Positions 8,687 through 50,397 of a DNA stretch of 64,000 bases are shown one piece after another. This DNA is from a virus, in IMG/VR virus record IMGVR_UViG_3300021963_008220, positions 62,001 to 126,000 of that record; one strand, 5' to 3'. How positions within the stretch are numbered: position 1 is the first letter of the stretch; every line of letters starts with the position of its first letter. The translations under genes and the position numbers were made by a program. The notes beneath the pieces were generated by a model, which worked only from the letters and a program-made list of their open reading frames with translations, ran no database searches and was not told where the DNA came from.

Positions 8687-10231
8687 ATGATGAAATATAG
8701 TTTCCCAACATTTTCTGAGAAGCAAGCCCTGATGGAAAACGTCCAGGCTGCTAAGGACTATCTTTTAAAGAGATATGCTTTAGCAAAGAAGATAAAAACC
8801 TCCGAGATCGACGAAGAAACCAAAAAAAAGATACTAGACGATCCTAAATTTAAGGAAATTAAGGACTTAACTGCAAAATTTCCGGGGTACACACCAATGT
8901 TCGTGAGATTTAGATTCGATCAAAAAGCTCACATGGAGGAACTAAAAGAGATTTTTGATAATCTAATGAAATATAGACAAACTCTAGGACAGGATTTGTC
9001 TATGAACATTAATGATTATGCTAAAATAGAGCCTACTGAAGATGATATCCGTCCAGGATATGAGGTTTTGGGAGACGACCTTAGAAACATTGAGAGAAAA
9101 AGAAAACTAAGAAAGTTTTACTCTGAACTAACAGGTAAAATGAGAAAGGTTTTTGCAAAAGCAACAGACAAACAAATTGACGACCTTACAGAAATCTCCA
9201 ACCAATTAGAACAGTTGAAAGACAAAGACGGAAAAAATGCTTGGAAAGAATTCACCAAAGGTCTAAAGAAATACGAAGACACCAGAACTTATCCTGAGTA
9301 TAAGGATGAAAAGGTGGCTTTCTCGGATATTATTAAAGATGCCTTAGAATTTGTAGAAGGATGGGACCAAGATGAATCTGGATTACTTAAGAAACTTAAG
9401 GATCTAGGTCCAATGGCTGGTATTCTTTATTCTAAAGACGGTTACATCGTGGAATCTGCAAGAACACCGGAAGCTCAAAGAGCAATATGCTCAGACACAA
9501 CATGGTGTATCAGAAATGATTCAACATTCTGGACATATGGTGGCGGCAGAGTACAGATTAATATCTATAACGGAAACGTTCCAGTTACCGATATCCATAG
9601 CTTAGTTGGAATCACAGTTAACCAAGACGGATCGATTCACACTGATGCAACAAGACCTAATAACAGATTAAAAGACAAAAACGGTAACAATTTCAGAACA
9701 TTAAAAGATGCGCTAGAAGGACTTGGTTATCCCAAGGATCTAGTTGATACCGTTATGTCTAAGTTCAAAATGGAGTGTGACATTAAGATCGCTCTTGAAA
9801 GATACTACAAAGACGGATCAGGTCTTACTGTTAGAAACATCATCGAATCACTTATCGCAACTTCAAAAGGTTTCTTAGCTGGTGCTATGCCACAGGAAGA
9901 CTGGGAAAAAATCTCTGGATTGGTCGCTCAGATCATCTTCGATGTTAAAGGTCTTAAGAAAAGTGACTTTATGAAAGAGTTTAAACAATACGGTATCTTT
10001 AGTGAAGCAACACTAAACGTATTCAACAGACTTATAGGCGACGATTACACCAAAGATGATATCGAGGAGATATTAAAAGCAACCGAAAAAGGAATCGAGG
10101 AGATTAAGTATGTTTTGGAACTCAATGCAGAAGGAAGCCTACCATTAAAATCCGCCCAAATTGAGAGCATGAAAAATGTGATTAAGGAGGAGGAAAACAT
10201 AGCCAAAAGAATTAAATCTAAATTAAAATGA
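8687..10231 (+). CDS. Paralogous protein 1 with WCI / YGGG-type motif
   Basis: 514 aa. Same architecture as the next gene (10228): helical N-terminal third containing KFPGYTPMFVRFRFDQ, a central conserved block with GILYSKDGYIVESARTPEAQ, then TTWCIRN, then GGGRVQINIYN, and a helical C-terminal third (LTVRNIIESLIATSKGF). The W-C-(T/I) plus Y-x-x-x-G block recalls a module seen in several large phage proteins, but I cannot name a function. N-terminus has F-S-E-K-Q-A-L-M-E-N. Stop overlaps the next start (ATGA). Confidence 0.7.
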   Translation: MMKYSFPTFSEKQALMENVQAAKDYLLKRYALAKKIKTSEIDEETKKKILDDPKFKEIKDLTAKFPGYTPMFVRFRFDQKAHMEELKEIFDNLMKYRQTLGQDLSMNINDYAKIEPTEDDIRPGYEVLGDDLRNIERKRKLRKFYSELTGKMRKVFAKATDKQIDDLTEISNQLEQLKDKDGKNAWKEFTKGLKKYEDTRTYPEYKDEKVAFSDIIKDALEFVEGWDQDESGLLKKLKDLGPMAGILYSKDGYIVESARTPEAQRAICSDTTWCIRNDSTFWTYGGGRVQINIYNGNVPVTDIHSLVGITVNQDGSIHTDATRPNNRLKDKNGNNFRTLKDALEGLGYPKDLVDTVMSKFKMECDIKIALERYYKDGSGLTVRNIIESLIATSKGFLAGAMPQEDWEKISGLVAQIIFDVKGLKKSDFMKEFKQYGIFSEATLNVFNRLIGDDYTKDDIEEILKATEKGIEEIKYVLELNAEGSLPLKSAQIESMKNVIKEEENIAKRIKSKLK

Positions 10232-11694
10232 GAATAGTACTAGAATCTTTCAGAGTTTGGCTAGATATTCAAAGAATTGACGAAAACATCTCTGCTACTA
10301 AAGGTTTTATGCAGAGTAGATATGCCGAGCAACTTAATAAGAGAGCAAATGAACTAACTCCGGAAGAGAGAGAAGAAGCATTAAGAGACGAGGGCTATTT
10401 AAAGATCGTTGATCTAACTAAGGGTTACCCCGGATATGCAATGCCATTCATTAAGTTCTATTTTGAACAAGGTGTAACATTAGAACAGCTAGGGGAAATC
10501 CTAAACATAGCAAGGAACGAAAAGCACATACTCCAGCAGTTAAGTAAACCAATAGATCAGTGGGCAAACACTGCAGAAGTGGATGGGCTTACTGGATTCG
10601 CTCAATTGACCAATGAGATTAGTGCTATAAGAAGAGCCAAAGAAGCTAAATGGTTTGTTGATGATATGCCTAGAGAATTAAGAGACAGGTATCGTTCAGC
10701 AAGTAAGGATAAACAGGAAGCATTGAATGATCTAGCTATCGAATTAAAAAAATTGGACGGTAGAATAGTAAAACGCTTAATTGCTAAAATTAAATCCCTG
10801 TCAACTTGGCCTATAGAGGACGTAACTTCTTATGTAGCCAGCTACGTTAAAGGCTACCAAAATTTAGGACTCCAGAAGAAAATGGAGGAATTAGAAAACA
10901 TCGCTCCGCAAGCTGGTATTCTTTATTCTGATAGTGGTTATCTGGTAATGAGTATGCGTACCGAGAAAGCACAAAAAGAATTATGCTCTGTTGGAGTTTG
11001 GTGTATTAACAAAGGAAGTTTTTACAACTATGCTGATAAGGGACTTCAGATTAACATTTTCAATTTTTCTTTAGAATCAACCGATCGAATGTATCTCGTC
11101 GGAACAACTATAACATTCGATGGAAAAGTTACCAATTGTCACGATATAAATAACACCTCGATTCTTAGATCTACCGATCCTAGAAAAAACTATGAAATGC
11201 TAGGATATCCGGAGGATTTGATAGAAGAAGTAATGAACAAATTCGACAGAGAATGCAACATTAAAAAGGCAGTCGATATGTTCTATAAAAGATCAAACGA
11301 TCTTACTGTTCAGAAAATAATCGAATCCCTGATAATATCATCTAAAGCTCTAATAGAAGGAACCATTACGGAAAAAGAATGGGAAAATATCTCCGGAATT
11401 GTTGCAGAAATAATTGCTGAACAGAAGAAGATAACCAAAAATGATTTCATGAAAGAATTCAAAGAAATGGGAATATTCAACCAGGCAGGTTTAAATGTTT
11501 TTGATGCTATCATCGGAAACGATTACACTAAATCGGACATAGAGGATATATTAGCAAGTACTGAATTTGTCATCGCAGAAATAGAAAATATTCTTAATAG
11601 TGGAGGTGGACGAAATCAAAAGGATCTCGAAAAGTTCCAAACCGTACTAAAAAACAAAGATGAAATAATAGAAAAAATCAAAGCTAAATTATAA
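10228..11694 (+). CDS. Paralogous protein 2 with WCI motif
   Basis: 488 aa, clearly related to the preceding protein along its length: KGYPGYAMPFIKFYFEQG, QAGILYSDSGYLVMSMRTEK, VGVWCINKGSFYNYADKGLQ and LTVQKIIESLIISSKALIEG align with their counterparts. The N-terminus MRIVLESFRVWLDIQRIDEN includes an I-D-E site like that in neighbouring candidates. The pair arose by duplication. Its start ATGA overlaps the stop of the first copy, so translation is coupled. Confidence 0.7.
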   Translation: MRIVLESFRVWLDIQRIDENISATKGFMQSRYAEQLNKRANELTPEEREEALRDEGYLKIVDLTKGYPGYAMPFIKFYFEQGVTLEQLGEILNIARNEKHILQQLSKPIDQWANTAEVDGLTGFAQLTNEISAIRRAKEAKWFVDDMPRELRDRYRSASKDKQEALNDLAIELKKLDGRIVKRLIAKIKSLSTWPIEDVTSYVASYVKGYQNLGLQKKMEELENIAPQAGILYSDSGYLVMSMRTEKAQKELCSVGVWCINKGSFYNYADKGLQINIFNFSLESTDRMYLVGTTITFDGKVTNCHDINNTSILRSTDPRKNYEMLGYPEDLIEEVMNKFDRECNIKKAVDMFYKRSNDLTVQKIIESLIISSKALIEGTITEKEWENISGIVAEIIAEQKKITKNDFMKEFKEMGIFNQAGLNVFDAIIGNDYTKSDIEDILASTEFVIAEIENILNSGGGRNQKDLEKFQTVLKNKDEIIEKIKAKL

Positions 11695-11695
11695 T

Positions 11696-12940
11696 ATGGA
11701 AAAAGTTTCAAAATACGACGAATTCATAGGAGAAGCTTATTGGAGCAAATCTTGGTTAAATCCTCCAGGAAGAGATCTAATAGATTCATTCGATGGCAAT
11801 CTTCCGTCAGCAAGAGACCTTAAAAGAGGACTTGGGGTAACTGTTCAAAGATTAGATGATCAAAAAATAAGACTCCATATAGCTGGAAGCTCAATGCCTA
11901 AAACTGCTATGTGGGTTAATGAGGACGGAAACTACTGTTCAGAACACTACTCAAGCAAACCTGGATTAGAAACTTACGGTTTTGCCAGCTTTGATACTCC
12001 ACAAGAACTATTCAGACACATCTGGCTTAGAATCGTTAAGAACGGTATACCAGCTTCACTCATAAGTAAGAGAGATGTTAACGAGAAGGTTAATTTTGAT
12101 GAGATGTATCCTGCAGGTGAAGAGCTTGATCTTGACGAAATCAGGGAAAGATTAAAACCACTGATGGGTGGGGATCAATTAGCACATCCTTCCAATTCGG
12201 AGCTTCTAGAACTTGCAACAATGCAAAGATTGATTGAGCTCGACTTCGTGGGAAAAATGGACAGATATTCAGGAAATAAGAGCGTTAGCTTAGTAAGAGA
12301 CATTTCCAAAGGCGGTAAAGTTAAATACTACTTCTACCTAAGAGCATTAGAAAGAGCTAAACAGCTTTATGGTGATCTAATTAAAGATCTAGTGGGTGGA
12401 GACGCTCACGGACAAATGATTCAGAAAACCGACTACGAAACATGGACTGTTACAAACACCCAAAGAATGCCGATCAACTCAGTTAACTTCAGAACAGGCG
12501 AAAACACACTAAGATGTAGATTGGAAGACGTTGAGATGTTTAACGCGATTTTCATTGCTATTGCAAAAAGAACTTTTAAAAGAGCTAAAGGTAGAAAGCT
12601 AGACGAGAAATTAGTTATACCCGGATGGAGAGCGTCAGCTGATGATAAACAAACAATGGAAGAGCTAAATGATCTTCTAGCAGACTATTTCCATGATGCA
12701 GCTGCAGAAGTGAGCCAAACAGTTTTCTTTGACAAAGAACACGACTCAACAGCAGTACACGAGAATGCTAAAGCAATTCTAATCAAGTACCTTTTAAAAG
12801 AAGGGTCAATGTCAGTTAAGAGCCTAATCACAGGAAACGATAAAATGACTCAGTATGTTGATATGGCAACTAAGATTGAAGACATCGACGGATTAACTAA
12901 GAGATTGATCAACGTTTCTAGAGCATTAAGATACGTATAA
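11696..12940 (+). CDS. Unknown protein with capsid-targeting-like N-terminus
   Basis: 414 aa. Starts MEKVSKYDEFIGEAYWSKS, with Y-D-E-F-I-G-E followed by Ala, one of the best matches here to a T4-type capsid-targeting peptide. The rest is mixed alpha/beta with an Arg-rich central region (NSVNFRTGENTLRCRLEDVE) and no recognised domain. Directly follows the paralogue pair (2-nt gap) and precedes the zinc-ribbon protein (2-nt gap): one operon from 8687 to 13937. Confidence 0.65.
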   Translation: MEKVSKYDEFIGEAYWSKSWLNPPGRDLIDSFDGNLPSARDLKRGLGVTVQRLDDQKIRLHIAGSSMPKTAMWVNEDGNYCSEHYSSKPGLETYGFASFDTPQELFRHIWLRIVKNGIPASLISKRDVNEKVNFDEMYPAGEELDLDEIRERLKPLMGGDQLAHPSNSELLELATMQRLIELDFVGKMDRYSGNKSVSLVRDISKGGKVKYYFYLRALERAKQLYGDLIKDLVGGDAHGQMIQKTDYETWTVTNTQRMPINSVNFRTGENTLRCRLEDVEMFNAIFIAIAKRTFKRAKGRKLDEKLVIPGWRASADDKQTMEELNDLLADYFHDAAAEVSQTVFFDKEHDSTAVHENAKAILIKYLLKEGSMSVKSLITGNDKMTQYVDMATKIEDIDGLTKRLINVSRALRYV

Positions 12941-12941
12941 T

Positions 12942-13937
12942 ATGAAAGAATTAAAACCGATATCTAATTTTCTATCAGAAAGAAGAAGACAAGACATCTG
13001 TTCGGGGTGTGGAAAAAGTATAGAGGATCAAGAAAAAGAGTGTCCAACATGTGGAGCATTTCCCCATAAAGCATATCACGAAAGAGCAGCAGCCAAAACT
13101 TTAGGTATTTCTAAATGGCTTCAGAATGCTCCCGTTATGCAACCAAATCAAAAATTAAGCGAAAATATAACAAAACCAGAAAATATGAACAACATAATTA
13201 AATTCGGTGAATTTGTAGAATCAAGAATTCACGAAAGCGAAACAGAATGGGATTTCCTAGACCAAGCTTGCTTAGAAGAAGGTTTAGACGAAATGATAGA
13301 TGAAATCTTAAACGAAGGATTACTTTCCAACCCTTCTGAATTGGCAGGAAAATTAACCTCTATAATGACATCTTCCACTAGCAAGGTATCCAAAGGTATG
13401 GGACAAGAATCGGTAGACCCTAAGTTAGAAGGAATATTAAAAGGATTGAGTAAAGGTATAGCAGAAACAATGTCAAAAGCTGGAGGCAATCCGGGTGAAT
13501 TCAGAAAGGCACTTGCAGGAAACAAAGAAATGAAGAAGATCTCCGACATTTTCACGAACTCTTTGAAAAAGTTAATCGATTCGGCTAAGTCAGATCCCAC
13601 TGTTTTATTCTCTAAACAATTCGGTCAAACTCTTGCAGGTCTATACATAGTTCGTAAAGTAGCTAAGGGAGCAATAGCTAAGCAAAATAAGGATTTTGCA
13701 GACTCATTTAACATGTCGTTATCTAAAGCTGTGAATATGAAATCCGCTACTCCAATGAACATGAAGCCTAAAAAATCATCTACTGCTAAACCTGGTGCTA
13801 AACCAGCTGAGACTAAAACTGCTGATGCAAAACCGGCTGAGACTAAACCGGAAGCAGCACCACAACCAGCTTCATCGACTTCTTCTACTAGCACAGAAAC
13901 AACTACAACTACCCCAGAGGATAAGAAGACAGCATAA
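12942..13937 (+). CDS. Zinc-ribbon protein with disordered Thr/Pro/Ala-rich tail
   Basis: 331 aa. N-terminus MKELKPISNFLSERRRQD has F-L-S-E at a capsid-targeting-like site. Residues about 21-40 form a zinc ribbon (CSGCGK and CPTCGAF). A second leader-like element, MNNIIKFGEFVESRIHES, lies at about residues 81-98 and could be an internal start or cleavage site. The middle is helical, the last 60 residues are Lys/Pro/Ala/Thr repeats. Last gene of the operon, followed by a terminator. Confidence 0.65.
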   Translation: MKELKPISNFLSERRRQDICSGCGKSIEDQEKECPTCGAFPHKAYHERAAAKTLGISKWLQNAPVMQPNQKLSENITKPENMNNIIKFGEFVESRIHESETEWDFLDQACLEEGLDEMIDEILNEGLLSNPSELAGKLTSIMTSSTSKVSKGMGQESVDPKLEGILKGLSKGIAETMSKAGGNPGEFRKALAGNKEMKKISDIFTNSLKKLIDSAKSDPTVLFSKQFGQTLAGLYIVRKVAKGAIAKQNKDFADSFNMSLSKAVNMKSATPMNMKPKKSSTAKPGAKPAETKTADAKPAETKPEAAPQPASSTSSTSTETTTTTPEDKKTA

Positions 13938-13994: not shown

Positions 13995-14026
13995 TTTTTT
14001 TTATCCGCGCTACCATATTACTTTTG
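13995..14026 (+). promoter_or_regulatory. Class-A promoter (T8 ATCCG, 11 nt, TACTTTTG)
   Basis: CCG ends at 14007, 11-nt spacer, TACTTTTG at 14019-14026. Upstream of the gene at 14047. Confidence 0.75.
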
Positions 14027-14046: not shown

Positions 14047-14271
14047 ATGGACATAAAAATATGGGACGCTAGAAACCGTCAATGGCTTGAGCCGATGTCA
14101 ATTTATTTTGGCAAGGGAAACACAATCTGGAAAATCAATGCAGTTAAAGTAGGCGAGGATCCGCTTTCTGACGGATGGTATGACATCCAGGGCGAAGATC
14201 TGAAGAAGGTAGCTGTTATTGGAGACATTAAGCACAACGTCCACCTTGTGGAAAAAGAAAAGAAAAAATAG
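14047..14271 (+). CDS. Small hypothetical protein
   Basis: 74 aa, starts MDIKIWDARNRQWLEPMSIY, beta-rich with several Trp and a Lys-rich end. The pattern of a short SH3-like or YopX-like phage protein is possible (I-x-x-W-D-x-x-x-x-x-W-L), but I do not claim it. First gene after a class-A promoter; its TAG stop is 1 nt before the next ATG. Confidence 0.65.
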   Translation: MDIKIWDARNRQWLEPMSIYFGKGNTIWKINAVKVGEDPLSDGWYDIQGEDLKKVAVIGDIKHNVHLVEKEKKK

Positions 14272-14272
14272 A

Positions 14273-14875
14273 ATGAATAATTTTGATCTAATAAGAAAAA
14301 TGCTGAGCTTTCCTGACGAGAATGCTTTTTACTTCCTTCAGATACTTAAAAGAAGAAAGGATAATCCAGATCTCAGAAAGGATATGGTTCTGCTTTCTGA
14401 TTATTACATTTATAGTCTGGAGCAGTTTGATGACCTAAAGCAGAGAATTATAGATCAATGTGACACAGAGAATGCTAGGGCATACTTTAGACTTAATCGT
14501 AGGGACGCTAAGAAGGTCGCTATGCAAGTTTTAAAAAGAACGGTAGATCATATTATGTCTGAAAATTATCGTGCAGTTAAGAACGCCTTTGCGTCCTGTG
14601 CGGGTGAATATCATTCAGATCCAGATAAGAAGTGGATTGTCGATATAGACTGTGTTAGCATAGACACGTTTAATCACGCAGAAGTTTACAATGAAGTCAG
14701 AAATTTGATATTGGATCTACAATCAGAGGCAGGAAAAGAACCGATGCTAAATCTTATAAGAAGCAAAAGCGGTGTTCATATTGTGACACGACCATTTAAT
14801 CTAAATAAATTCAAATCCAGATTCCCCGATATTGATGTCCATAAGGACAACATGGTTATATTATACTGTAAATAA
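14273..14875 (+). CDS. Archaeo-eukaryotic primase (AEP)-like small protein
   Basis: 200 aa from the ATG at 14273; a frame open further upstream overlaps the preceding gene. KKWIVDIDCVS has the hhhDhD form of AEP motif I and SKSGVHIVTRPFN resembles motif II (S/T-x-x-G-x-H-h-h); a later DIDVHKDNMVIL could supply motif III. If correct, it would be a small catalytic subunit of a primase or related nucleotidyltransferase. It sits two genes before a Dda-like helicase, which fits replication. The short length and lack of a recognised accessory domain keep this tentative. Confidence 0.5.
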   Translation: MNNFDLIRKMLSFPDENAFYFLQILKRRKDNPDLRKDMVLLSDYYIYSLEQFDDLKQRIIDQCDTENARAYFRLNRRDAKKVAMQVLKRTVDHIMSENYRAVKNAFASCAGEYHSDPDKKWIVDIDCVSIDTFNHAEVYNEVRNLILDLQSEAGKEPMLNLIRSKSGVHIVTRPFNLNKFKSRFPDIDVHKDNMVILYCK

Positions 14876-17072: not shown

Positions 17073-17104
17073 TTTTTTTACCCCGAAAGATTTACTTATC
17101 ATTG
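17073..17104 (+). promoter_or_regulatory. Class-A promoter (T7 ACCCCG, 11 nt, TATCATTG)
   Basis: CCG ends at 17085, 11 nt, TATCATTG at 17097-17104 (one mismatch to TAnnTTTG). Heads the RNA-repair operon. Confidence 0.7.
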
Positions 17105-17128: not shown

Positions 17129-17608
17129 ATGTTAGTAGACTTATCTAAGGGGGAAGAAGAGGTTCTTTCGGGAATAAGAAAGGATAGGAGATACAATGAG
17201 GGCAACTTCGAAATCAAGTACATCGAGCTTTCAGCGGAGATTCGTTCTGTTGTAGAGGCAGCAAAGATCTACATTCTTGACAACTATAAGAAGGTGAAAG
17301 ATTACAAAGATCTCCATCTCATGTTGAGATGTGCCAATCACGACGGAACTCAATACTTTGGACCAAAGAGCAAAAAACCTAAGAAAGATCAGGGGATAAT
17401 TAGCAAAACATTAGAGAATGCCATAAAGCGTCTTGACAAGCAGACAATCCAGATCAAGAAATTCGATGAAGCTGTTTATGATTGGACTGACGGAGACTTC
17501 TCTGTTGTTTTCAACGGAGTTAATTACAATTGGATTGACGGCAATTCGATAGTGGACATAGCATCTTATATAGAGAGAAAAATTGAGGAAGGTAATAAGG
17601 TTTTATAG
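17129..17608 (+). CDS. Unknown protein at the head of the RNA-repair operon
   Basis: 159 aa, basic, no recognised domain. Contains LHLMLRCANHDGTQYFGPKS and a terminal FSVVFNGVNYNWIDGNSIVD. Begins MLVDLSKGEEEVLSG. First gene behind a class-A promoter. Ends in TAG, overlapping the next gene. Confidence 0.65.
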   Translation: MLVDLSKGEEEVLSGIRKDRRYNEGNFEIKYIELSAEIRSVVEAAKIYILDNYKKVKDYKDLHLMLRCANHDGTQYFGPKSKKPKKDQGIISKTLENAIKRLDKQTIQIKKFDEAVYDWTDGDFSVVFNGVNYNWIDGNSIVDIASYIERKIEEGNKVL

Positions 17609-17933
17609 AGACGAGAACAAAAGATGGTACGCAGATCTACCTGAGTACATTGCACAAGGAGGAACTGTGGAAGAGTGCGAGATGGTTTCCGGTGCCGATG
17701 ATTGGCTAGACTACATCTCGGGAAACCGAGATGCCGTTGTTTTAACTTTATCTGATCAGAATTCGCTATCCGAGAAAATGCTTTTATATGAGAGCGACGA
17801 ATACGGTGCTACTTATATAGCACACACCTACAAGGAAGAAGACGTTAACCAAGTACTTTGGCTTTGTCCAGTTACTGTTTTTGTATTCGGTAACTATCCA
17901 AGCACAATTTACTATCACGTAATAAAGGAATGA
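17583..17933 (+). CDS. DUF6717-like protein (TTG start)
   Basis: 116 aa. Starts with TTG at 17583, overlapping the upstream gene by 26 nt. The N-terminal KVIRFYRDENKRWYADLPEY and following EMVSGADDWLD, AVVLTLSD are characteristic of the DUF6717 family as I remember it. Function unknown. Stop overlaps the RNA ligase ATG (ATGA), so probably translationally coupled to it. Confidence 0.6.
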   Translation: MRKVIRFYRDENKRWYADLPEYIAQGGTVEECEMVSGADDWLDYISGNRDAVVLTLSDQNSLSEKMLLYESDEYGATYIAHTYKEEDVNQVLWLCPVTVFVFGNYPSTIYYHVIKE

Positions 17934-19069
17934 AATACGATTTAAACATATTAAACGAATACATTGAGCGTGGACTTCTGATAAAGAATCCGCATCCAAC
18001 TTTGCCTCTGGATATCTATAACTATTCAAGAGATTGCCAGTTTAGTGAATCTTGGGATGAGATCACGTTAAATATGAGAGGTACTGTTCTGGATCGTGAA
18101 GGCAACATCGTGGCTAGGGTTTTTCCTAAGTTCTTTAACATGGAAGAACATAAGTCAGGAGAAATACCAAATGAGGATTTTGAGGTGTTTGAAAAGATGG
18201 ACGGATCCCTAGGAATTCTTTTTCACTACGAAGGGGAATGGCATTTAGCTACCCGTGGATCCTTTGCCTCAGACCAAGCAATAAAGGGTAAAGAGATTCT
18301 GAGCAGATACAGGTACGAAAAGTTGATCCCAGGATACACTTACCTTTTTGAAATCATCTATCCAGAAAACAGAATCGTTTGTGACTACGGGTACGAAGAT
18401 TTAGTTATGCTTGCTGTTATCGATAACAAGGACGGATACGAGCTTAGAATCCACGACAACGACATACATCTTGAAGGTATTAGATTCGCGAATCTCTACA
18501 ACAATCTAGGATTCAAGATTGTTAAGAAGTACGACGGGGTTCAAGATTATAAGCAACTGAAATCGATGATCAAGAACAATGCTGAAGGATTTGTAATCAA
18601 ATTCAAATCTGGATTCAGAATGAAGATCAAAGGGGAGGAGTACGTTAGGTTGCATAGGTTGCTAACCAACTTCTCAAACGTTGATATCTGGGAGCTGTTA
18701 AAAGACGGTAGAGATCTTGATGAATTTCTAGACAGAGTTCCTGATGAGTTTGACAAATGGGTTAAGAAAACTATTCGGGATTTACAATATCATAAATACG
18801 CAATCGAGGAGAGAGCAGGTAAGACCCACGATTATTTTAGATATGGTAAGTATAACGATCGTGAAACTGAACCTACTAAGAAAGAGTTTGCTGAGCATCT
18901 AGAATTTTGTAAGGTTGAACCAAGCATAAGATCTATATGTTTTGCAATATGGGACGGAAAGAACTACGATCACATCACCTGGAAGATAATAAAACCAAAA
19001 TATCAAAAACCATTTTGGAATAAAGAGGAAGAAATTCCAGCGGATTCAAAATGGCTTAAAAAAGATTAA
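17930..19069 (+). CDS. rnl1-like: T4 RNA ligase 1-like RNA ligase
   Basis: 379 aa. Nucleotidyltransferase motif I at residues 88-92 (EKMDGSLGI), the Lys89 expected to be adenylylated; TYLFEIIYPENRIV as motif IIIa-like; GFVIKFKSGFRMKIKGEEYV as motifs IV/V. T4 Rnl1 (374 aa) joins 5'-phosphate and 3'-OH RNA ends to repair anticodon-cleaved tRNA. The neighbouring phosphoesterase, P-loop kinase and cyclic-phosphate-processing receiver gene make the same job likely here. Central gene of the operon from 17129. Confidence 0.88.
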   Translation: MKYDLNILNEYIERGLLIKNPHPTLPLDIYNYSRDCQFSESWDEITLNMRGTVLDREGNIVARVFPKFFNMEEHKSGEIPNEDFEVFEKMDGSLGILFHYEGEWHLATRGSFASDQAIKGKEILSRYRYEKLIPGYTYLFEIIYPENRIVCDYGYEDLVMLAVIDNKDGYELRIHDNDIHLEGIRFANLYNNLGFKIVKKYDGVQDYKQLKSMIKNNAEGFVIKFKSGFRMKIKGEEYVRLHRLLTNFSNVDIWELLKDGRDLDEFLDRVPDEFDKWVKKTIRDLQYHKYAIEERAGKTHDYFRYGKYNDRETEPTKKEFAEHLEFCKVEPSIRSICFAIWDGKNYDHITWKIIKPKYQKPFWNKEEEIPADSKWLKKD

Positions 19070-19072
19070 GAA

Positions 19073-19714
19073 ATGAAAATTATATTAGAAAAAAATCAGA
19101 ACATATTTTTTACGAGTGACACTCATTACAATCACTCAAATATTTGCCGCGCCACTTCTAATTGGCCGGGAGGAAGAGGCACACGAGACTTTCACTCTTT
19201 GGGTGAAATGAACGATGCTATTGTAAGCGGTATTAACTCAGTTGTTGGACCGGACGATTACCTAGTTCATCTAGGTGATTGGAGCTTTGGTGGATTTGAA
19301 TCCATTGCGGAGTTCAGAAAGAAAATAGCTTGCAAGAACGTGATACTATTTTTAGGCAACCACGATCACCACATCCGAAATAACAAGGAGGGCGTACAAG
19401 GCCATTTCAAGCAAGTTTCAAGCTACGATATTATAGATATCCGTAGGCCAGAAGGCAAGGAGATGGGTAAATACCAATTCGTATGCTGTCATTTTCCGAT
19501 AGCAAGTTGGGATGGTATGAATAAGAACGTTCCGCATTTACATGGGCACGTTCATTTACCACCTAAATTAAAAATCCACGAAGGACAGGCAATGGATGTG
19601 GGAGTAGATGGAAACAATCTCGAGCCTTACAGCTTAAATGAGATACTAAAGATTATGAAGGGAAGGCCAGTTAGGCACCTGGTATTACCCCAAGATCATC
19701 ACTCGGAAGAATAA
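19073..19714 (+). CDS. Calcineurin-like metallophosphoesterase
   Basis: 213 aa. All motifs of the family are visible: FFTSDTHYNHSNI (D-x-H), VHLGDWSFG (GD), FLGNHDHH (GNHD), CCHFPIASWDG (H) and LHGHVHLPPK (GHxH). The two-metal centre hydrolyses phosphomono- or diesters. Three nt downstream of an RNA ligase and followed by a kinase, so removal of 2',3'-cyclic or 3' phosphates from broken RNA is a reasonable inference. Substrate not determinable from sequence. Confidence 0.85.
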   Translation: MKIILEKNQNIFFTSDTHYNHSNICRATSNWPGGRGTRDFHSLGEMNDAIVSGINSVVGPDDYLVHLGDWSFGGFESIAEFRKKIACKNVILFLGNHDHHIRNNKEGVQGHFKQVSSYDIIDIRRPEGKEMGKYQFVCCHFPIASWDGMNKNVPHLHGHVHLPPKLKIHEGQAMDVGVDGNNLEPYSLNEILKIMKGRPVRHLVLPQDHHSEE

Positions 19715-19724
19715 AAACAGAAAA

Positions 19725-19898
19725 ATGGTAACGCAAGAAATTTTAGACACATTCGTCTTCACCACAATCGGGGGAGAAAAATTTGGAGTTAATGATCCGA
19801 CAGCTCACGATGAGATTATTGGATATTACCCAACAAGACAAGAAGCTGAGAATGCTTTTAAGGAGTATATTGAAAAAGAAGGGATAATTTTCGAATAA
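19725..19898 (+). CDS. Small protein between phosphoesterase and kinase genes
   Basis: 57 aa, ATG at 19725, stop TAA overlapping the next ATG (TAATG). Sequence begins MVTQEILDTFVFTTIGGEKF and ends FKEYIEKEGIIFE. No family recognised. The tight overlap and A-rich leader support it as a real gene. Confidence 0.55.
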   Translation: MVTQEILDTFVFTTIGGEKFGVNDPTAHDEIIGYYPTRQEAENAFKEYIEKEGIIFE

Positions 19899-20347
19899 TG
19901 GAAAATGTAAGAAACGAAGAATACAGCACTTTGAATCCAACACTATTTCTTGTAAGAGGAATACCAGGATCAGGTAAGTCTACTTTCGCAAAGCACATCT
20001 GGAACGAGTATGCAGTTTGTGAGGCTGATAAGTTTTTTCACAACAAAGAGACTGGTGAATACAACTTTGACGCATCAAGATTGAAAGAAGCTCATGAATG
20101 GTGCAGAAACGAGGTTGAGACTAGAATGAAAGATCACCAGGTTAATCCTCAGTATTATCCAGAGATCGTGGTTTCAAATACATTCACACAAGAATGGGAA
20201 ATGCAGGCTTATATCGATCTTGCCAAAAAATACGGTTATCAAGTCACAACATTAATCGTAGAGAACCGACACGGTAACTCAAATGTCCACAACGTTCCCG
20301 AGGAAACGCTGGATCGTATGAGACAAAGATTCGATGTAAAACTTTAA
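19898..20347 (+). CDS. P-loop kinase, polynucleotide-kinase-like (AAA_33 type)
   Basis: 149 aa. Walker A within FLVRGIPGSGKSTFAKHIW (G-I-P-G-S-G-K-S at 21-28), then ADKFF and a C-terminal TLIVENRHGNSNVHNVPEET, as in the zeta-toxin/T4 Pnk-type kinase family (T4 Pnk has GCPGSGKS). Only the kinase domain is present; the HAD phosphatase half of T4 Pnk is absent and the phosphoesterase upstream could supply it. Expected to phosphorylate 5'-OH RNA ends. Start overlaps the preceding stop. Confidence 0.8.
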   Translation: MENVRNEEYSTLNPTLFLVRGIPGSGKSTFAKHIWNEYAVCEADKFFHNKETGEYNFDASRLKEAHEWCRNEVETRMKDHQVNPQYYPEIVVSNTFTQEWEMQAYIDLAKKYGYQVTTLIVENRHGNSNVHNVPEETLDRMRQRFDVKL

Positions 20348-20350
20348 GAA

Positions 20351-21115
20351 ATGGAGGAGAACGAAAAAGTGATACCCATGACACTATCCCAAGCAAGGGA
20401 GAAGTTCGGGAAGGCAAGAAAGGCATTTGAAATCATGATTGATGATACGCCATACGTGGTTTATGATATCGATGGTTATGAGCATCAGAATGGAAAATGG
20501 AATGGTACGCCTGCCACATGGTGGCTTGATTTCTCCTCTCCCGCAGTTAAAGGAGAGATCACTCCGGAGAGGAATTTGGTTCCTTACGTCGATATAGGTG
20601 TTAATAGAATTTGCTGGGAAGTTAGATTCAAGCAAAGTAATTACGCAAAACATAAGTGGGACGAGTGGGACATAAGAAGCTCCGGCCAATGTCAGATTTA
20701 TGCAAACGGTAAACTTATATACAGTTTTGGATCACGTGACGTTGCCTATGCCTTAAGCAAAGCACAATATCTGATGGTTAACCTGATGGAGCATCCGTAT
20801 AACTTTCTAAATCCAGAGGGGGAAAGAGGGAGGAAGATATGGTATTATGGTCTTCCTGCCACAGTAGAACCCTCGCATTGTCACGGCGAGATAAGGGTTG
20901 CACCTGACTACACCCAAATGGAGCAGGAAAGATGGTGGAAGGAATATAGTATAAGGAAAAAACCTATTGATCTCCCCAAAGAAGGTGAAGAATGGGAAAC
21001 CGAAAGACAGGACAGAGAGATGGAAGAGGAGCGTTTTAGAGAGACCAAAGATTATGGCTTCATTAATCACGGTGATGCACTCTGGGACGGCATGATAAAC
21101 TGGTTTAGAAGATAA
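20351..21115 (+). CDS. Unknown protein in the RNA-repair operon
   Basis: 254 aa, Trp/Tyr-rich with a charged C-terminal helix (EWETERQDREMEEERFRET). Contains VYDIDGYEHQNGKWNG and WEVRFKQSNYAKHKWDEWD. No recognised fold. Lies between the kinase and the receiver-like gene with gaps of 3 and 1 nt, so it is part of the same operon. Confidence 0.7.
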   Translation: MEENEKVIPMTLSQAREKFGKARKAFEIMIDDTPYVVYDIDGYEHQNGKWNGTPATWWLDFSSPAVKGEITPERNLVPYVDIGVNRICWEVRFKQSNYAKHKWDEWDIRSSGQCQIYANGKLIYSFGSRDVAYALSKAQYLMVNLMEHPYNFLNPEGERGRKIWYYGLPATVEPSHCHGEIRVAPDYTQMEQERWWKEYSIRKKPIDLPKEGEEWETERQDREMEEERFRETKDYGFINHGDALWDGMINWFRR

Positions 21116-21116
21116 A

Positions 21117-21560
21117 ATGAAAAAAATGAAAACATATAATTTATTCTTGGACGACTACAGACTTCCTGTTGATTGCTCAAGGTACATGCCCAATCCGGGA
21201 TTATATAATCTTAATCAATGGGTTATAGCTAGAAACTACGACGAGTTTGTTAGCTTCATCGAGAAGAATGGTTTACCTGACATGATCTCTTTTGATCACG
21301 ATCTAGCAGACGAGCACTACTCAAATGACATGTATGCAGGTAACGAGGTTTACGATAAGAACTACGAGAAGTTCACAGAGAAAACCGGTTATGATTGCGC
21401 TAAGTGGTTGGTTGACTACTGTATGGATAAAGATCAAGATCTTCCCGAATACATAGTTCATTCAATGAATCCAGCAGGCGGGAAAAATATCTGGCAATAT
21501 TTAGAGAATTATCGAAAATTCAGGGAAGAAGAAGAGTATAAAAAGTATCACGGAGGATAA
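21117..21560 (+). CDS. Cyclic-phosphate-processing receiver-domain protein (cpRec-like)
   Basis: 147 aa. Receiver-like strand LFLDDYRLP with paired Asp, GLPDMISFDHDLAD, then GYDCAKWLVDYCMDKD and a final YIVHSMNPAGGKNIW. This is the pattern of the receiver-derived family that has been predicted (comparative genomics of RNA-repair systems) to act on RNA cyclic phosphate ends. Its presence four genes after an RNA ligase supports that idea. Not a two-component regulator: no partner kinase or output domain. Confidence 0.65.
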   Translation: MKKMKTYNLFLDDYRLPVDCSRYMPNPGLYNLNQWVIARNYDEFVSFIEKNGLPDMISFDHDLADEHYSNDMYAGNEVYDKNYEKFTEKTGYDCAKWLVDYCMDKDQDLPEYIVHSMNPAGGKNIWQYLENYRKFREEEEYKKYHGG

Positions 21561-25218: not shown

Positions 25219-25250
25219 TTTTTTTATACCGATCATATATCATACTTTTG
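25219..25250 (+). promoter_or_regulatory. Class-A promoter (T7 ATACCG, 11 nt, TACTTTTG)
   Basis: CCG ends at 25231, 11 nt, TACTTTTG at 25243-25250. Upstream of the gene at 25265. Confidence 0.75.
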
Positions 25251-26800: not shown

Positions 26801-27418
26801 ATGCCAACAGGATACACAGCAGGAGTGGTTGACGGAACCACCAAAACATTCAAAGATTTTGCAAAGATTTGCATGAGAGCTTTCGGGGCAGCGATTCATA
26901 TGAGAGACGAACCTCTGAGCAAGAAATATGAACACAGGGTTCCAGACGATTTCTATTACGAAAGAATTGAGGAAGCAAAGAAAAATCTTGCAGAACTCGA
27001 TACGCTACCTGACGAGCACTTCATTAAAGAGGAGCACGAGAAAATAAAGGATGATATCAGATACTACTCCGAAAAAATGAGAAAGGTTAAAGAAGCTAGA
27101 GAGAGATTAGATTCCTTGCTGGAAGAAACATCTGAGTGGGAACCACCAACCACAGATCATGTGGAATTTAAGAATTTTATGATTCAACAACTCACCGAAA
27201 CAATAAAATATGATGGTGACGTTGAATATTATGAAGGAGAAATTGAGCGTCTTTATAAAAAATTAGATACCCCTATTGATCTGGACTCTGTTAAGAAAGA
27301 TCTCAGAGAATCTTACGAAGCTAATCTAAATAGGAGTCAAAAAAGTCTTGATGAAGAAATCGAAAGATGTAAAAAATCCCACGATTGGGCGGATCAATTA
27401 TTAAAATCAATAGAATAA
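26801..27418 (+). CDS. Coiled-coil phage protein
   Basis: 205 aa from the ATG at 26801 (MPTGYTAGVVDGTTKTFKDF). The opening is shared by many phage proteins of unknown function. From residue 60 on, long charged helices dominate (KDDIRYYSEKMRKVKEARER). No catalytic motif. Two nt before the RNA ligase gene. Confidence 0.7.
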   Translation: MPTGYTAGVVDGTTKTFKDFAKICMRAFGAAIHMRDEPLSKKYEHRVPDDFYYERIEEAKKNLAELDTLPDEHFIKEEHEKIKDDIRYYSEKMRKVKEARERLDSLLEETSEWEPPTTDHVEFKNFMIQQLTETIKYDGDVEYYEGEIERLYKKLDTPIDLDSVKKDLRESYEANLNRSQKSLDEEIERCKKSHDWADQLLKSIE

Positions 27419-27420
27419 GA

Positions 27421-28509
27421 ATGGAAAGGAAATTAGCATCCATACAAAGAATCGGAAACATACTTCCCATCGAGGGAGCAGACGCAATAGAAATCGTAAC
27501 TGTTAACTCTTGGAAGGTTGTTTCTAAGAAGGGAGAATTTAATGAAGGGGATCTTTGTGTTTATTTCGAAATTGATTCGTTCTTACCTGTGAGAGAAGAA
27601 TTCGAATTTCTTAGAAAATCATCTTATAAAAAGATGGGTGATGTCGAAGGATTCAGATTAAAGACAATCAAATTAAGAGGCCAGGTTTCTCAAGGACTTT
27701 GTCTTCCACTCAATATATTGGAAGGTCCAGATGAATTCGTAATCGGTGTCAGCAAGCAGCCTTGGGGAGATCAGCTTCAGATTGGACCTTATGATGACGC
27801 TTTTGTTATCGAGGAAGGTGCTGATGTAACAGAATACCTAGGTGTTCTTAAGTACGAGCCACCAGTTCCAGCAGAACTTGCAGGAAAGGTTAAAGGTCTA
27901 TTCCCAGGTTTCATTAGAAAAACGGACGAGGAGAGAATCCAGAACATGACTAAGGAATACGACAGCATGCTTGATAAGCACTATTACGTAACAGAAAAAC
28001 TCGACGGAAGTTCAGCTACATATTATTTCAAGGATGGTGTATTTGGCGTGTGTTCAAGAAATTTGGAGCTATTAGAAACAGAGGGAAATACTTTCTGGAA
28101 GGTTGCTAGAGAATTGCTTATCGAAGAGAAATTAAGAAACATAGGGGAGAATTACTCTATCCAAGGTGAGCTTATCGGAGAAGGCGTTCAGGGTAACCCC
28201 TACAAAATTAAAGGTCAAACTGTATTGATCTTTAACATTTTCAACATCGACAAGCAAGAGTATCTTAGTCTTGATGACATGGTTCATTTTCTACACAAAA
28301 TAAATGTAGACGATAAGCCTTTGGAGCTTGTGCCTGTCGTTAATTACGATTACAAATTACCTCCAACAATCGAGGAGATCATCAGATATGCTGACGGTAA
28401 ATCAAGATTGAATGAGGGAACAGATAGAGAGGGTATAGTTATCAGAAATAGAGACAAGAGTATTTCTTTTAAAGCTATATCAAATACGTTTTTATTAAAA
28501 GAGAAGTAA
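27421..28509 (+). CDS. RNA ligase of the DRB0094 / DraRnl type
   Basis: 362 aa from the ATG at 27421. An N-terminal module (RKLASIQRIGNILPIEGADA) precedes the nucleotidyltransferase domain: motif I VTEKLDGSSATYYF, GVCSRNLELLE (motif III), YSIQGELIGEGVQGNPYK (IIIa) and EGIVIRNRDKSISFKAIS (IV/V). This order matches the Deinococcus RNA ligase family, which seals nicked RNA with 3'-OH and 5'-phosphate, including nicks templated by DNA. It is a second, different RNA ligase within 10 kb of the Rnl1-like one. Confidence 0.88.
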   Translation: MERKLASIQRIGNILPIEGADAIEIVTVNSWKVVSKKGEFNEGDLCVYFEIDSFLPVREEFEFLRKSSYKKMGDVEGFRLKTIKLRGQVSQGLCLPLNILEGPDEFVIGVSKQPWGDQLQIGPYDDAFVIEEGADVTEYLGVLKYEPPVPAELAGKVKGLFPGFIRKTDEERIQNMTKEYDSMLDKHYYVTEKLDGSSATYYFKDGVFGVCSRNLELLETEGNTFWKVARELLIEEKLRNIGENYSIQGELIGEGVQGNPYKIKGQTVLIFNIFNIDKQEYLSLDDMVHFLHKINVDDKPLELVPVVNYDYKLPPTIEEIIRYADGKSRLNEGTDREGIVIRNRDKSISFKAISNTFLLKEK

Positions 28510-31835: not shown

Positions 31836-32607
31836 GAATTGGCTGGCAGAGTCAGAAACTCCGGAGACTTATAACTTAACTCAGGAGGACATCGACTATA
31901 TTCAGAATAACTGTAAAGTATTAAGTGTTCTTAAAAAATCAGGATTATCGGAAGGAATATTCAAACACTTAAATAGTCGCGATTATTTCTATGCGAAGAT
32001 ATCCACAAAAGATCTTGAGAAATATATTAAGCTTCTAGAGAAGACAGAGATAGAGTTTGTTCCAAGCTACTTTGAAGAGACAAACAATATCATAATACAT
32101 TTTACCAGAGATCGCAAGCTGGAAATAGGAAAGCACACCTCAGACATATTAGACTCCGGATCATTATCCCACAGAGGAAATACTAGGGAATTTAAAGTAA
32201 AATGGAGTGCTGATAGCAGAGATCAGGTTCTAGAGGTAGTAAATCAATCTATCGAAGAGATCATAAAGGAAATCAAGAAGGTTAGAGTCATGATCCAGGT
32301 GGGTAAAAAAAATATTCCGGATTCTCTAAAACCAACGATTAAAAAGAGAATATTGGAAAATTATAGAAGTGTGGTTGACTCTTTCTTTTATGAAGGAAAA
32401 TTACCCGAATTGGAGGAAACAAATATTGGATGGGTCATAGCGGAAATCTACTCATCAGATAAAACTATACTAAATACAATTTCTGATATAGAGGACAGGG
32501 AAACCCTTGATTCCATCCTAAGATCGCTAGAAAAGATGGAGGAAACGGATATCGTTAAGATCGTGAAAGCATACGTTAGATCATCCAGAATATTAAAGCA
32601 TCTCTAA
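31810..32607 (+). CDS. Unknown protein with capsid-targeting-like N-terminus
   Basis: 265 aa. N-terminus MQNHLLKYKNWLAESETPE: Y-K-N-W-L-A-E followed by Ser is a strong match to the leader pattern. The rest is charged and mostly helical, no recognised domain. Starts inside the previous gene but has its own GATATATA 4 nt upstream. Stop shares a base with the next ATG. Confidence 0.65.
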   Translation: MQNHLLKYKNWLAESETPETYNLTQEDIDYIQNNCKVLSVLKKSGLSEGIFKHLNSRDYFYAKISTKDLEKYIKLLEKTEIEFVPSYFEETNNIIIHFTRDRKLEIGKHTSDILDSGSLSHRGNTREFKVKWSADSRDQVLEVVNQSIEEIIKEIKKVRVMIQVGKKNIPDSLKPTIKKRILENYRSVVDSFFYEGKLPELEETNIGWVIAEIYSSDKTILNTISDIEDRETLDSILRSLEKMEETDIVKIVKAYVRSSRILKHL

Positions 32608-32984
32608 TGAGGAACATTAAACTATATGAGCTTTGGGATAAGAAGGAAGATGATGGGGTGGAGATGCTGGTTAAAATTCTAGATGATCTAAAACCCACAA
32701 TAATATCTCACTTCAATGCAAGAACGATGGATGTGGATTTCGTTGAGGTTTCTGATCCCCAGCAATTTGTTCTTGAGTATTGGCCTAAATCATTCGACAA
32801 CAGAATACCACAAAGAATCTCATACTACATAGACGATATTGCGGAAACCCTTTCAGAAGAAATTGGGACTAAAATAGATTGGCAGTTCTCACCTAATGGT
32901 AACGTTCAAAGATTGGAATTCAACCTTGAGAATGAAATTGATCCTAAATACTTCAGCGCCAAAGACCGCATGAGGTTCTCTTAA
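32607..32984 (+). CDS. Unknown small protein, weak capsid-targeting-like N-terminus
   Basis: 125 aa, starts MRNIKLYELWDKKEDDGVEM. The I-K-L-Y-E-L-W opening matches the leader family but the L/I-x-E site is not clear. Acidic, no domain recognised. Cotranscribed with the 31810 gene (TAATG overlap). Confidence 0.6.
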   Translation: MRNIKLYELWDKKEDDGVEMLVKILDDLKPTIISHFNARTMDVDFVEVSDPQQFVLEYWPKSFDNRIPQRISYYIDDIAETLSEEIGTKIDWQFSPNGNVQRLEFNLENEIDPKYFSAKDRMRFS

Positions 32985-33007
32985 TCTCAAACAAATCCTC
33001 CGATTTA

Positions 33008-33039
33008 TTTTTTTACCTCGGAATCATTCCTTATTTTTG
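33008..33039 (+). promoter_or_regulatory. Class-A promoter (T7 ACCTCG, 11 nt, TATTTTTG)
   Basis: TCG ends at 33020, 11 nt, TATTTTTG at 33032-33039. Heads the operon from 33055. Confidence 0.7.
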
Positions 33040-35602: not shown

Positions 35603-36181
35603 ATGAAACTAATATTCTTAGATATAGACGGAGTTCTTAATTGCGAGAACGCTTACCGAAGAGGTGAGTGCCAATACCAGGAATGGATTTGGGAAGACGG
35701 TCGCAAGGATCACTATCAGCGATTTTGTAAACGCAGCAAAGATCTGCTAAATCAACTCATTGATGCAACTGAAGCGAAAATCGTTATCTCATCTAGTTGG
35801 AGAACAAGTGGTATTGAATTTATGAAGAAAGTTTGGGAGCTTGAAGATATGCACGGTGAAATAATAGGGATCACCCCGTCAATGAGAACTTCGGGAATAA
35901 GTATTCCACGAGGAATGGAAATTCATTACTACTTAGAGCATGACTTGGGGTTCCGTCATATCAACTGGTCAGCTGACGAGCAACAAAAACTAATGGACAA
36001 GTCGGGCGTAGAAAACTACATTATCATTGATGATGACAGTGACATGCTATACGGGCAGCGTAATCACTTCGTCCACGTTCTACCTTCACCCAGAAACAAA
36101 GAAGGATTTAACCAGAAGTATTACAAAGAAGCTTTATCTAAATTAAGTAAAACAGTAACGGATCTAAATTATAAAAAATGA
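35603..36181 (+). CDS. HAD-domain protein
   Basis: 192 aa. KLIFLDIDGVLNCENAYRRG (motif I), AKIVISSSWRTSG (motif II) and NYIIIDDDSDML (motif IV). This subgroup of HAD proteins with the F-L-D-I-D-G-V-L-N opening occurs in phages and near RNA-repair genes. Substrate unknown; could be a polynucleotide 3'-phosphatase. Stop overlaps the Thg1-like ATG, so coupled expression is likely. Confidence 0.75.
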   Translation: MKLIFLDIDGVLNCENAYRRGECQYQEWIWEDGRKDHYQRFCKRSKDLLNQLIDATEAKIVISSSWRTSGIEFMKKVWELEDMHGEIIGITPSMRTSGISIPRGMEIHYYLEHDLGFRHINWSADEQQKLMDKSGVENYIIIDDDSDMLYGQRNHFVHVLPSPRNKEGFNQKYYKEALSKLSKTVTDLNYKK

Positions 36182-37026
36182 AAGACGCACTAGGCGATAG
36201 AATGAAAGATTTCTACGAAGACAGGACAAGAACAAAACTTCCGAGAAGAAGTTACACAATAATCAGAATCGACGGAAAGGCTTTCCATACTTACACAAGA
36301 GGTTTAGAAAGACCTTTTGATATGTGGCTCATGGAAGACATGGACGCAACTGCAGCTTACCTCTGTAAGAATATTCAGGGTGCTAAATTTGCATACGTTC
36401 AGTCAGATGAGATCTCAATTCTAATTACAGATTTTGATGATCTAGGAACACACGCTTGGTTTGATAACAATCTACAAAAGATGGCTTCAGTTTCTGCTTC
36501 AATGGCAACTGCCAGATTCAACCAACTTAGATTAATTAGAGAAGCTAAGAACGGGGGAGACTTAGTTAAATCACAGATCTCACAATTTCCGATGGCTATG
36601 TTTGACGCCAGGGTATTTCAAATTCCATTTGCAGCTGAGGTTGAAAACTATTTCATCTGGAGACAGCAAGACGCTACAAGAAACTCTATCAGTTCAGCTG
36701 CACAAAGTGTTTATAGCTCTAAAGAATTACACGGGGTTAAGAGTGACGGTATGCAGGAAATGCTCTTCCAAAAGGGGATCAACTGGAACGATTACAGTCC
36801 AAGAGAGAAAAGAGGATCTGTTATCAGAAAGGTAGAGAAACAATTTGTGAGGAGAGAAACAATGGCAGAGGTAACCGATACTACAGTAGTCATTCCTGAA
36901 TCTGCTACCTATAAAAGAAATGTTTGGGAAGCAGATCCAGAAACACCAATCTTTACACAGAACAGGGAATATCTAAGATCTCTCTTTCCTAATTACGAAC
37001 AACAAAAAGAGGAAGAAAATGTTTAG
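36178..37026 (+). CDS. thg1-like: tRNA(His) guanylyltransferase / Thg1-like 3'-5' polymerase
   Basis: 282 aa. Canonical motifs: YTIIRIDGKAFHTYTRGL (first metal Asp), AKFAYVQSDEISILITDF (second metal Asp), then KMASVSASMATARFN and a C-terminal YSPREKRGSVIRK-type basic segment. Bacterial Thg1-like proteins add nucleotides to 5' ends in the 3'-5' direction and can repair 5'-truncated tRNAs; family knowledge. Here it follows a HAD phosphatase and complements the two RNA ligases. Ends TAG, overlapping the next gene. Confidence 0.9.
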   Translation: MKDALGDRMKDFYEDRTRTKLPRRSYTIIRIDGKAFHTYTRGLERPFDMWLMEDMDATAAYLCKNIQGAKFAYVQSDEISILITDFDDLGTHAWFDNNLQKMASVSASMATARFNQLRLIREAKNGGDLVKSQISQFPMAMFDARVFQIPFAAEVENYFIWRQQDATRNSISSAAQSVYSSKELHGVKSDGMQEMLFQKGINWNDYSPREKRGSVIRKVEKQFVRRETMAEVTDTTVVIPESATYKRNVWEADPETPIFTQNREYLRSLFPNYEQQKEEENV

Positions 37027-49713: not shown

Positions 49714-50397
49714 ATGAACTACAGATCAGAATTTGAAAAGTACGCTAGAAGCGAACACGGAATCTCCTCACTGAGATTGGATTACTTCGATAAAAGAATC
49801 CAATCGTCAATGACGCCTTATATCTTAGAGGAAAGAGAAATGAGAGTTACTCAGATGGATATCTTCTCACGTTTAATGAGAGATCGCATTCTTTGGGTTG
49901 CTGGAGGAGTTGATGATGACATGTCGACTGTGGTTCAGGCTCAGCTGATGTTTTTAGATTCTGTTGACGACAGAGACATCACTATGCACATCGATTCACC
50001 AGGTGGATCTGTTAAGTCCGGTCTATCTATGATTGATGTTATGGAATACATCGCATGTGACATCAGAACAGTAAATACCGGAATGGCAGCATCAATGGGA
50101 TCTGTTTTATTGGGAGCAGGTACTAAAGGTAAAAGAAGCTCTTTGAGATTCAGTAAGGTGATGCTTCACCAATCAAGCGGAGGATTTAGAGGAAATATCC
50201 AGGATGCAAAGATTGATATGCAAGAGTGGGAAGAGGTTAACAAGATTCTTTTCGATCTTCTTGGAAGTTACTGCGGTAAGAAACCAGAGCAGGTCATGAA
50301 AGATGCAACTAGAGATTTCTGGTTAAGTGCAGAAGAGGCAGTAAAATACGGAATCATTGATGAAGTAGTTCTCAAGAAGGAGAAAAAAAGAAAATAA
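49714..50397 (+). CDS. clpP: ClpP-like serine protease
   Basis: 227 aa. ClpP fold: VQAQLMFLDSVDDRDITMHI, DSPGGSVKSGLSMID, catalytic Ser127 in NTGMAASMGSVLLG, His152 in KVMLHQSSGGFRG and Asp in the region of KDATRDFWLSAEEAVKYGII. All triad positions are present. Could act as a phage protease with host Clp ATPases, or as a diverged maturation protease. Its stop touches the smpB start (TAATG), so the two are cotranslated. Confidence 0.9.
   Translation: MNYRSEFEKYARSEHGISSLRLDYFDKRIQSSMTPYILEEREMRVTQMDIFSRLMRDRILWVAGGVDDDMSTVVQAQLMFLDSVDDRDITMHIDSPGGSVKSGLSMIDVMEYIACDIRTVNTGMAASMGSVLLGAGTKGKRSSLRFSKVMLHQSSGGFRGNIQDAKIDMQEWEEVNKILFDLLGSYCGKKPEQVMKDATRDFWLSAEEAVKYGIIDEVVLKKEKKRK

Follow-up and report, generated by a model that had tools for sequence, protein, structure and literature searches.

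A probable phage module that heals and seals RNA ends through separately encoded enzymes

How might a phage reseal broken RNA if its polynucleotide kinase lacks the phosphatase half found in T4 Pnk? The question is raised by a 64,000-nucleotide stretch of viral DNA (the window), bases 62001-126000 of the 134,030-base IMG/VR phage record IMGVR_UViG_3300021963_008220. Here an Rnl1-type RNA ligase, a calcineurin-like metallophosphoesterase (MPE), a stand-alone P-loop kinase and a cyclic-phosphate-processing receiver-like protein (cREC) follow a so-called class-A phage promoter (Table 1). The original prediction, made from the sequence alone, held that these four proteins could together heal 2',3'-cyclic phosphate and 5'-OH ends and reseal RNA, with phosphatase and kinase split into separate genes. 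All four genes lie where it placed them, with intact frames, scores above curated family thresholds and strong PHROGs matches, and the split between phosphatase and kinase is correct. Considering the recurrent linkage of these genes from several anchors, their conserved active sites, the purifying selection acting on them and the exchange of the MPE with a T4-type phosphatase, we consider it probable that they form a module that heals and seals RNA ends, each activity being encoded separately. Support for ligase, kinase and MPE in this role is good; the part assigned to cREC is weaker.

Conserved active sites and recurrent linkage

By sequence, the ligase is a member of the T4 Rnl1 family other than T4 RnlA itself. 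It matches the T4 Rnl1 structure 2c5u (7e-12) and passes the Pfam RNA_lig_T4_1 domain cut-off (60.6 bits versus 28.3), while its score against the NCBIfam T4 RnlA equivalog TIGR02308 (67 bits) falls below the cut-off of 242. Its nucleotidyltransferase residues K89 (of the KxDG motif), G92, E141, E219-G220, K232 and K234 are invariant, and D91 is nearly so. The kinase profile matches the solved kinases of bacterial Pnkp (4gp7, 1.6e-5) and T4 Pnk (1ly1, 7e-5); the P-loop is invariant and D44, R124 and R144 are conserved. The protein is predicted to phosphorylate RNA 5'-OH ends. The MPE scores 30.2 against the PF00149 cut-off of 21.5 and is matched by 676 phage records. Its metal ligands D16, H18, D69, N96, H97, H140, H159 and H161 are invariant among 25 aligned members.

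Loci on viral contigs were fetched via three of the proteins (ligase, MPE and kinase), and anchors were reduced to distinct proteins at 75% identity; genes within 10 kb were counted as near. Around 24 distinct ligases, an MPE was near 22 and a kinase near 20. When the 25 distinct kinases served as anchors, an RNA ligase was near 20 and an intact MPE near 14. An unguided ranking of neighbour families across 51 loci returned the kinase (44 loci), the ligase (38), the MPE (36), cREC (16) and a DRB0094-type RNA ligase (13) as its top five, and the families below these were found in 10 and 8 loci. Gene order within the module varies widely among loci, the genes flanking it in the window (a helicase and a GMP reductase) are seldom common to other loci, and no fusions among the four families were found in 228 loci. 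The four enzyme genes are under strong purifying selection: the ratio of nonsynonymous to synonymous substitution rates (omega, dN/dS) against the nearest relatives was 0.04-0.08 for ligase, MPE, kinase and cREC wherever it could be computed.

The sealing enzyme is itself exchanged between loci. A DRB0094-type ligase is near 12 of the 25 distinct kinases, often in place of the Rnl1 type at kinases with no Rnl1 ligase nearby. The window phage carries both; its second ligase scores 197.6 bits against the TIGR02306 cut-off of 151.

The module also occurs in cultured phages. MPE, ligase and kinase adjoin one another in Aeromonas phages PAc and phiA009; Vibrio phage Ceto carries ligase, a small gene, kinase and MPE; and in Pseudomonas phage EM the ligase adjoins the kinase, with the MPE 1.2 kb off. 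Many of these genes are annotated just as hypothetical or ATPase. Since Ceto, PAc and phiA009 have all three genes and grow on laboratory hosts, the claim can already be put to the test, and a module with one activity per gene allows each repair step to be assayed alone.

Exchange of the phosphatase and the proposed repair pathway

As the original prediction stated, the kinase lacks the HAD half of T4 Pnk, and a domain search found no HAD_PNKP domain (PF25109) anywhere in the 134-kb record. In four kinase lineages without a good MPE, a stand-alone protein that passes the Pfam HAD_PNKP cut-off adjoins the kinase. Among 55 distinct kinases, 35 had an intact MPE nearby, 4 a stand-alone HAD_PNKP protein, none had both and 16 had neither (Fisher p 0.014, without correction for relatedness). 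The kinase profile behind these final counts was built from P-loop proteins only, with HAD proteins excluded. At the level of whole records, none of the 13 that match the MPE strongly had HAD_PNKP above its cut-off, versus 4 of the 12 others. Two loci, L177 and L178, have kinases that are 65% identical, and upstream of the kinase there is an MPE in the former and a HAD_PNKP gene in the latter. We regard this exchange as the strongest indication that the module's 3'-end phosphatase is the MPE, which likely stands in for the HAD half of T4 Pnkp. Bacterial Pnkp and Pnkp1 are known to differ by the same switch of phosphatase superfamily (PMC4411300). The MPE/HAD exchange also suggests a function for phrog_547, which is mostly annotated merely as phosphoesterase.

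Several points weigh against this assignment. The nearest solved relative found with the MPE profile is the uncharacterised protein aq_1665 (2e-14), not the Pnkp phosphatase. The HAD_PNKP cases are few and may share a single origin; the kinase tree fixes the number of exchanges only at a minimum of one. Lastly, the 55-kinase set takes in loci that were fetched via the MPE or the ligase, which inflates the share with an MPE.

Degenerate MPE-like proteins were also seen. At eight loci (L173, L174, L175, L181, L183, L185, L186 and L198), the kinase is preceded, at a distance of 2-3 kb, by an MPE-like protein of about 172 aa in which almost all of the metal ligands have been lost together. At L166 such a protein (L166:828-1352) lies 9 kb upstream of the kinase, and this locus also has an intact MPE.

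In the pathway that we propose, RNA, in all likelihood tRNA, would be cut by metal-independent endoribonucleases of the host or a competitor, with 2',3'-cyclic phosphate and 5'-OH termini as products. With cREC helping or acting first, the MPE would open the cyclic phosphate and then strip off the phosphate, so that a 2',3'-diol results; the stand-alone MPE would thus fill the role that the HAD half has in T4 Pnkp. The kinase would add a phosphate to the 5'-OH, and the Rnl1-type ligase would then join the 3'-OH to the 5'-phosphate. The DRB0094-type ligase, a Swiss-Army-Knife (SAK) HAD phosphatase, a Thg1-like protein and the protein encoded at 14219 may widen the range of damage that is handled. 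The genes, the promoter motif, residue conservation, selection, linkage and, within this sample, the exclusive phosphatase partners are observed; we infer the substrates, the order of the steps, the cREC reaction, the tRNA (anticodon) target and the counter-defence purpose. RNA repair is a survival route for phages against tRNA-cutting host enzymes.

The module resembles several known systems. Like T4 Pnkp and Rnl1, which repair tRNA, it pairs an Rnl1-type ligase with a P-loop 5'-kinase related to T4 Pnk; unlike them, it has separate kinase and phosphatase genes, an MPE rather than a HAD phosphatase, and in addition cREC and a second, DRB0094-type ligase. T4 Pnkp joins kinase and HAD phosphatase in one protein, whereas the phage gene encodes a 149-aa kinase only. 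In the bacterial Pnkp-Hen1 system a single protein unites kinase, MPE and ligase, the enzyme classes of the module; the phage kinase matches bacterial Pnkp, and such a three-part fusion exists in phages as phrog_8238. In the window, however, these classes are spread over three genes, the ligase is of the Rnl1 branch and the MPE matches aq_1665 rather than the Pnkp phosphatase; against TIGR04075, the one-polypeptide bacterial Pnkp family, the score is 20 bits versus a cut-off of 750. The Capnocytophaga Pnkp1-Rnl-Hen1 system likewise splits healing and sealing between proteins and occurs in Bacteroidota, the probable host phylum here, but in its Pnkp1 the kinase is still joined to a phosphatase of T4-like type, and its Rnl is of the Pnkp ligase branch (PMC4411300).

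The novelty of the locus is less than the original prediction implied. In 2021, cREC was predicted together with its linkage to RNA ligases (PMC7824862), and in 2022 a neighbourhood of sirtuin, T4-like ligase, cREC, kinase and occasional calcineurin was described in phages V5 and Mydo (PMC9503650). The window shares with the latter the T4-like ligase, cREC, the kinase and the calcineurin-like MPE. It differs in that the enzymes of NAD-dependent end clean-up (sirtuin/SIR2, KptA, 2H and Macro) were not found in the 134-kb record, which may itself be incomplete, in that the MPE is regular rather than occasional, and in the MPE/HAD exchange. What is new here is the sirtuin-less, split version of the system, its breadth, and the exchange of MPE with HAD and of Rnl1 with DRB0094. 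More speculatively, phages might use a third architecture for RNA healing, in which a stand-alone MPE of an uncharacterised family and a T4-type HAD phosphatase have replaced each other beside one kinase lineage, and a receiver-fold cREC with no phosphorelay role represents a new class of RNA 2',3'-cyclic phosphatase that acts before the MPE.

cREC and alternative readings

cREC is experimentally uncharacterised (PMC9503650). The window protein passes PF20274 with 80.6 bits against a cut-off of 27, and residues D12, D13, D60, H61, D62, H115, S116 and N118 are invariant. Its structure model (pLDDT 87.5, pTM 0.82) most resembles receiver domains, with a best Z of 8.2 and 2.3 Å across 89 residues; a receiver-like fold with an acidic site is likely, though a Z of this size can reflect a common arrangement. 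Four strands of the model end at the conserved DD, DHD and HSxN motifs, and the lysine-bearing fifth strand of receivers was not seen in it. A single-sequence scan returned zero cREC relatives, whereas a query with the alignment did recover them; compared with the PDB by sequence alone, cREC had no more than chance-like matches, such as CD86. The protein is a candidate hydrolase of cyclic phosphates.

The linkage of cREC to the other genes depends on the anchor. It is near 10 of the 24 distinct ligases, while reverse anchoring on 59 distinct cRECs places an RNA ligase within 10 kb of only 15, which weighs against a full part for cREC in the module. The reverse count rules out cREC as a strict module partner. 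Since two RNA ligase types and the kinase are nevertheless its most frequent neighbour families, itself aside, cREC is an optional, looser partner, and it thereby gains a defined partner set.

It is possible, though we hold it to be somewhat doubtful, that cREC acts outside RNA repair, clearing a soluble cyclic signal of host defence (ADP-ribose cyclic phosphate or a cyclic nucleotide), and merely shares a counter-defence region with the repair genes. The 44 of 59 distinct cRECs that have neither type of RNA ligase within 10 kb would fit this, as would Erwinia phage Hallingskeid, where cREC is near Nudix, Sir2 and Nampt genes, and the authors who defined cREC propose both kinds of substrate (PMC7824862, PMC9503650). 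Its commonest neighbours argue for RNA instead, as does the failure to find SIR2, KptA, 2H or Macro families in the record.

Many loci, moreover, have MPE, kinase and ligase with no cREC within 10 kb, and the single MPE domain of Clostridium thermocellum Pnkp is known to heal cyclic phosphate ends. The MPE could on these grounds be both 2',3'-cyclic phosphodiesterase and phosphatase, with cREC binding cyclic ends as a regulator or sensor; we regard this as unlikely, as the invariant receiver-like acidic residues and HSxN motif of cREC look catalytic. That the kinase, MPE and ligase instead mend DNA or mixed ends, or that the ligase attaches tail fibres like T4 gp63, is improbable: T4 Pnk does act on DNA too and the PHROG annotation of the ligase reads RNA ligase and tail fibre attachment catalyst, but Rnl1 and DRB0094 are families of RNA ligases, the kinase lineage pairs with either, and the exchange of the phosphatase with HAD_PNKP argues against both roles. 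We prefer the reading in which ligase, kinase and MPE heal and seal RNA and cREC is an optional partner.

Transcription unit, host and further genes

The class-A promoter named in the original prediction is real. The motif TTTTT-N5-CG-N11-TANNNTTG occurs in 13 copies in the window versus 0.8 expected with one mismatch allowed, a number matched by 0 of 100 shuffles, and all copies are on the + strand. The copy upstream of the module ends 24 bases 5' of the start codon at 17129. Because the next + strand copy is only at 25220, the unit probably extends to about 24344, past a GMP-reductase-like gene, and the extent first given (17129-21560) was probably too short. A generic sigma-70 promoter scan showed no excess over chance. 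The end of the motif looks like the -7 box TAnnTTTG that flavobacteria have in sigma-A promoters (PMC9723704), which points to a Bacteroidota host. Bacterial-genome relatives of the Rnl1-type ligase are also mostly from Bacteroidota, and the host is probably a member of this phylum, the level to which it is resolved. The phage encodes a sigma-70-like factor (PF04542, PF08281; window 58569-59105) that could read the class-A promoters.

Table 1. Features of the module, its promoter and possible accessory genes (window coordinates)
Feature	Position	Strand	Family match or remark
Probable accessory gene, outside the unit	14219..14875	+	phrog_14949, hmmsearch 2e-77; own class-A promoter at 13996
Class-A phage promoter, TTTTT-N5-CG-N11-TANNNTTG	17074..17104	+	Bacteroidetes-type -7 box TAnnTTTG; 13 copies vs 0.8 expected
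Unknown protein, 159 aa, first gene of unit	17129..17608	+	No family at useful E-value
DUF6717 protein, 116 aa	17583..17933	+	PF20475 1.8e-31
Rnl1-type RNA ligase, 379 aa	17930..19069	+	PF09511 2.6e-16; phrog_562 1e-64
Calcineurin-like MPE, 213 aa	19073..19714	+	PF00149 7e-7; phrog_547 3e-42
Small unknown protein, 57 aa	19725..19898	+	No family match
Stand-alone P-loop polynucleotide kinase, 149 aa, no HAD domain	19898..20347	+	PF13671 1e-13; phrog_2071 3e-46; phrog_505
Unknown protein, 254 aa	20351..21115	+	Between kinase and cREC in several relatives
cREC, 147 aa	21117..21560	+	PF20274 1.4e-22
Small unknown protein, 70 aa	21564..21776	+	Recurs beside module; homologues in 40 loci
DRB0094-type RNA ligase (OB fold and Rnl2-like ligase)	27385..28509	+	PF21189, PF09414
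SAK HAD phosphatase	35603..36181	+	PF18143 7e-22
Thg1-like 3'-5' nucleotidyltransferase	36178..37026	+	PF04446 3e-28; phrog_4717 2e-87

The original prediction counted three unknowns in the unit and overlooked the DUF6717 gene at 17583, so that up to cREC there are four (17129, 17583, 19725 and 20351). The 17129 protein has homologues in 20 loci and is near 4 of 25 distinct ligases. The 19725 protein is conserved in close relatives, with an omega of about 0.1. A model of the 20351 protein, built from five sequences only, is of low confidence (pLDDT 71, best Z 4.2); a dsRBD-like fold appeared among other weak matches that were unusable, and the fold is left unassigned. The 21564 protein can be much more conserved than the adjoining ligase, reaching 95% identity across 66 aa where the ligases share only 56-59%.

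Also overlooked were the downstream genes for the second RNA ligase, the SAK HAD phosphatase and the Thg1-like protein. The SAK HAD gene, which overlaps the Thg1 gene, is one of two in this phage, the other being at record 58719-59318. Upstream, the 14219 protein has no Pfam match; its family has a primase-polymerase-like DxD...GxH pattern, with D142, D144, G185 and H187 conserved, and is found near 5 of the 24 distinct ligases and 6 of the 25 distinct kinases, again with 10 kb as the limit. This family recurs beside phage RNA-repair genes and in a Dyadobacter operon with a ligase and a Pnk-HAD gene.

Elsewhere in the window, four adjacent large genes (514, 488, 414 and 331 aa; 8687-13937) have no Pfam or PHROGs match. 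A 626-aa SPFH/Band 7 (flotillin-like) protein is encoded at 39179-41059, and a tyrosinase-like protein (PF00264 2e-28) at 59224-60660 on the - strand. A phage SmpB (PF01668 1e-46) with an adjoining ClpP-like protease lies at 49714-50822, and a transfer-messenger RNA with the tag EVEYAYAA (Rfam RF00023, 55.5 bits) lies at record 32570-33011 (L083:13070-13511); together these give the phage a near-complete trans-translation set.

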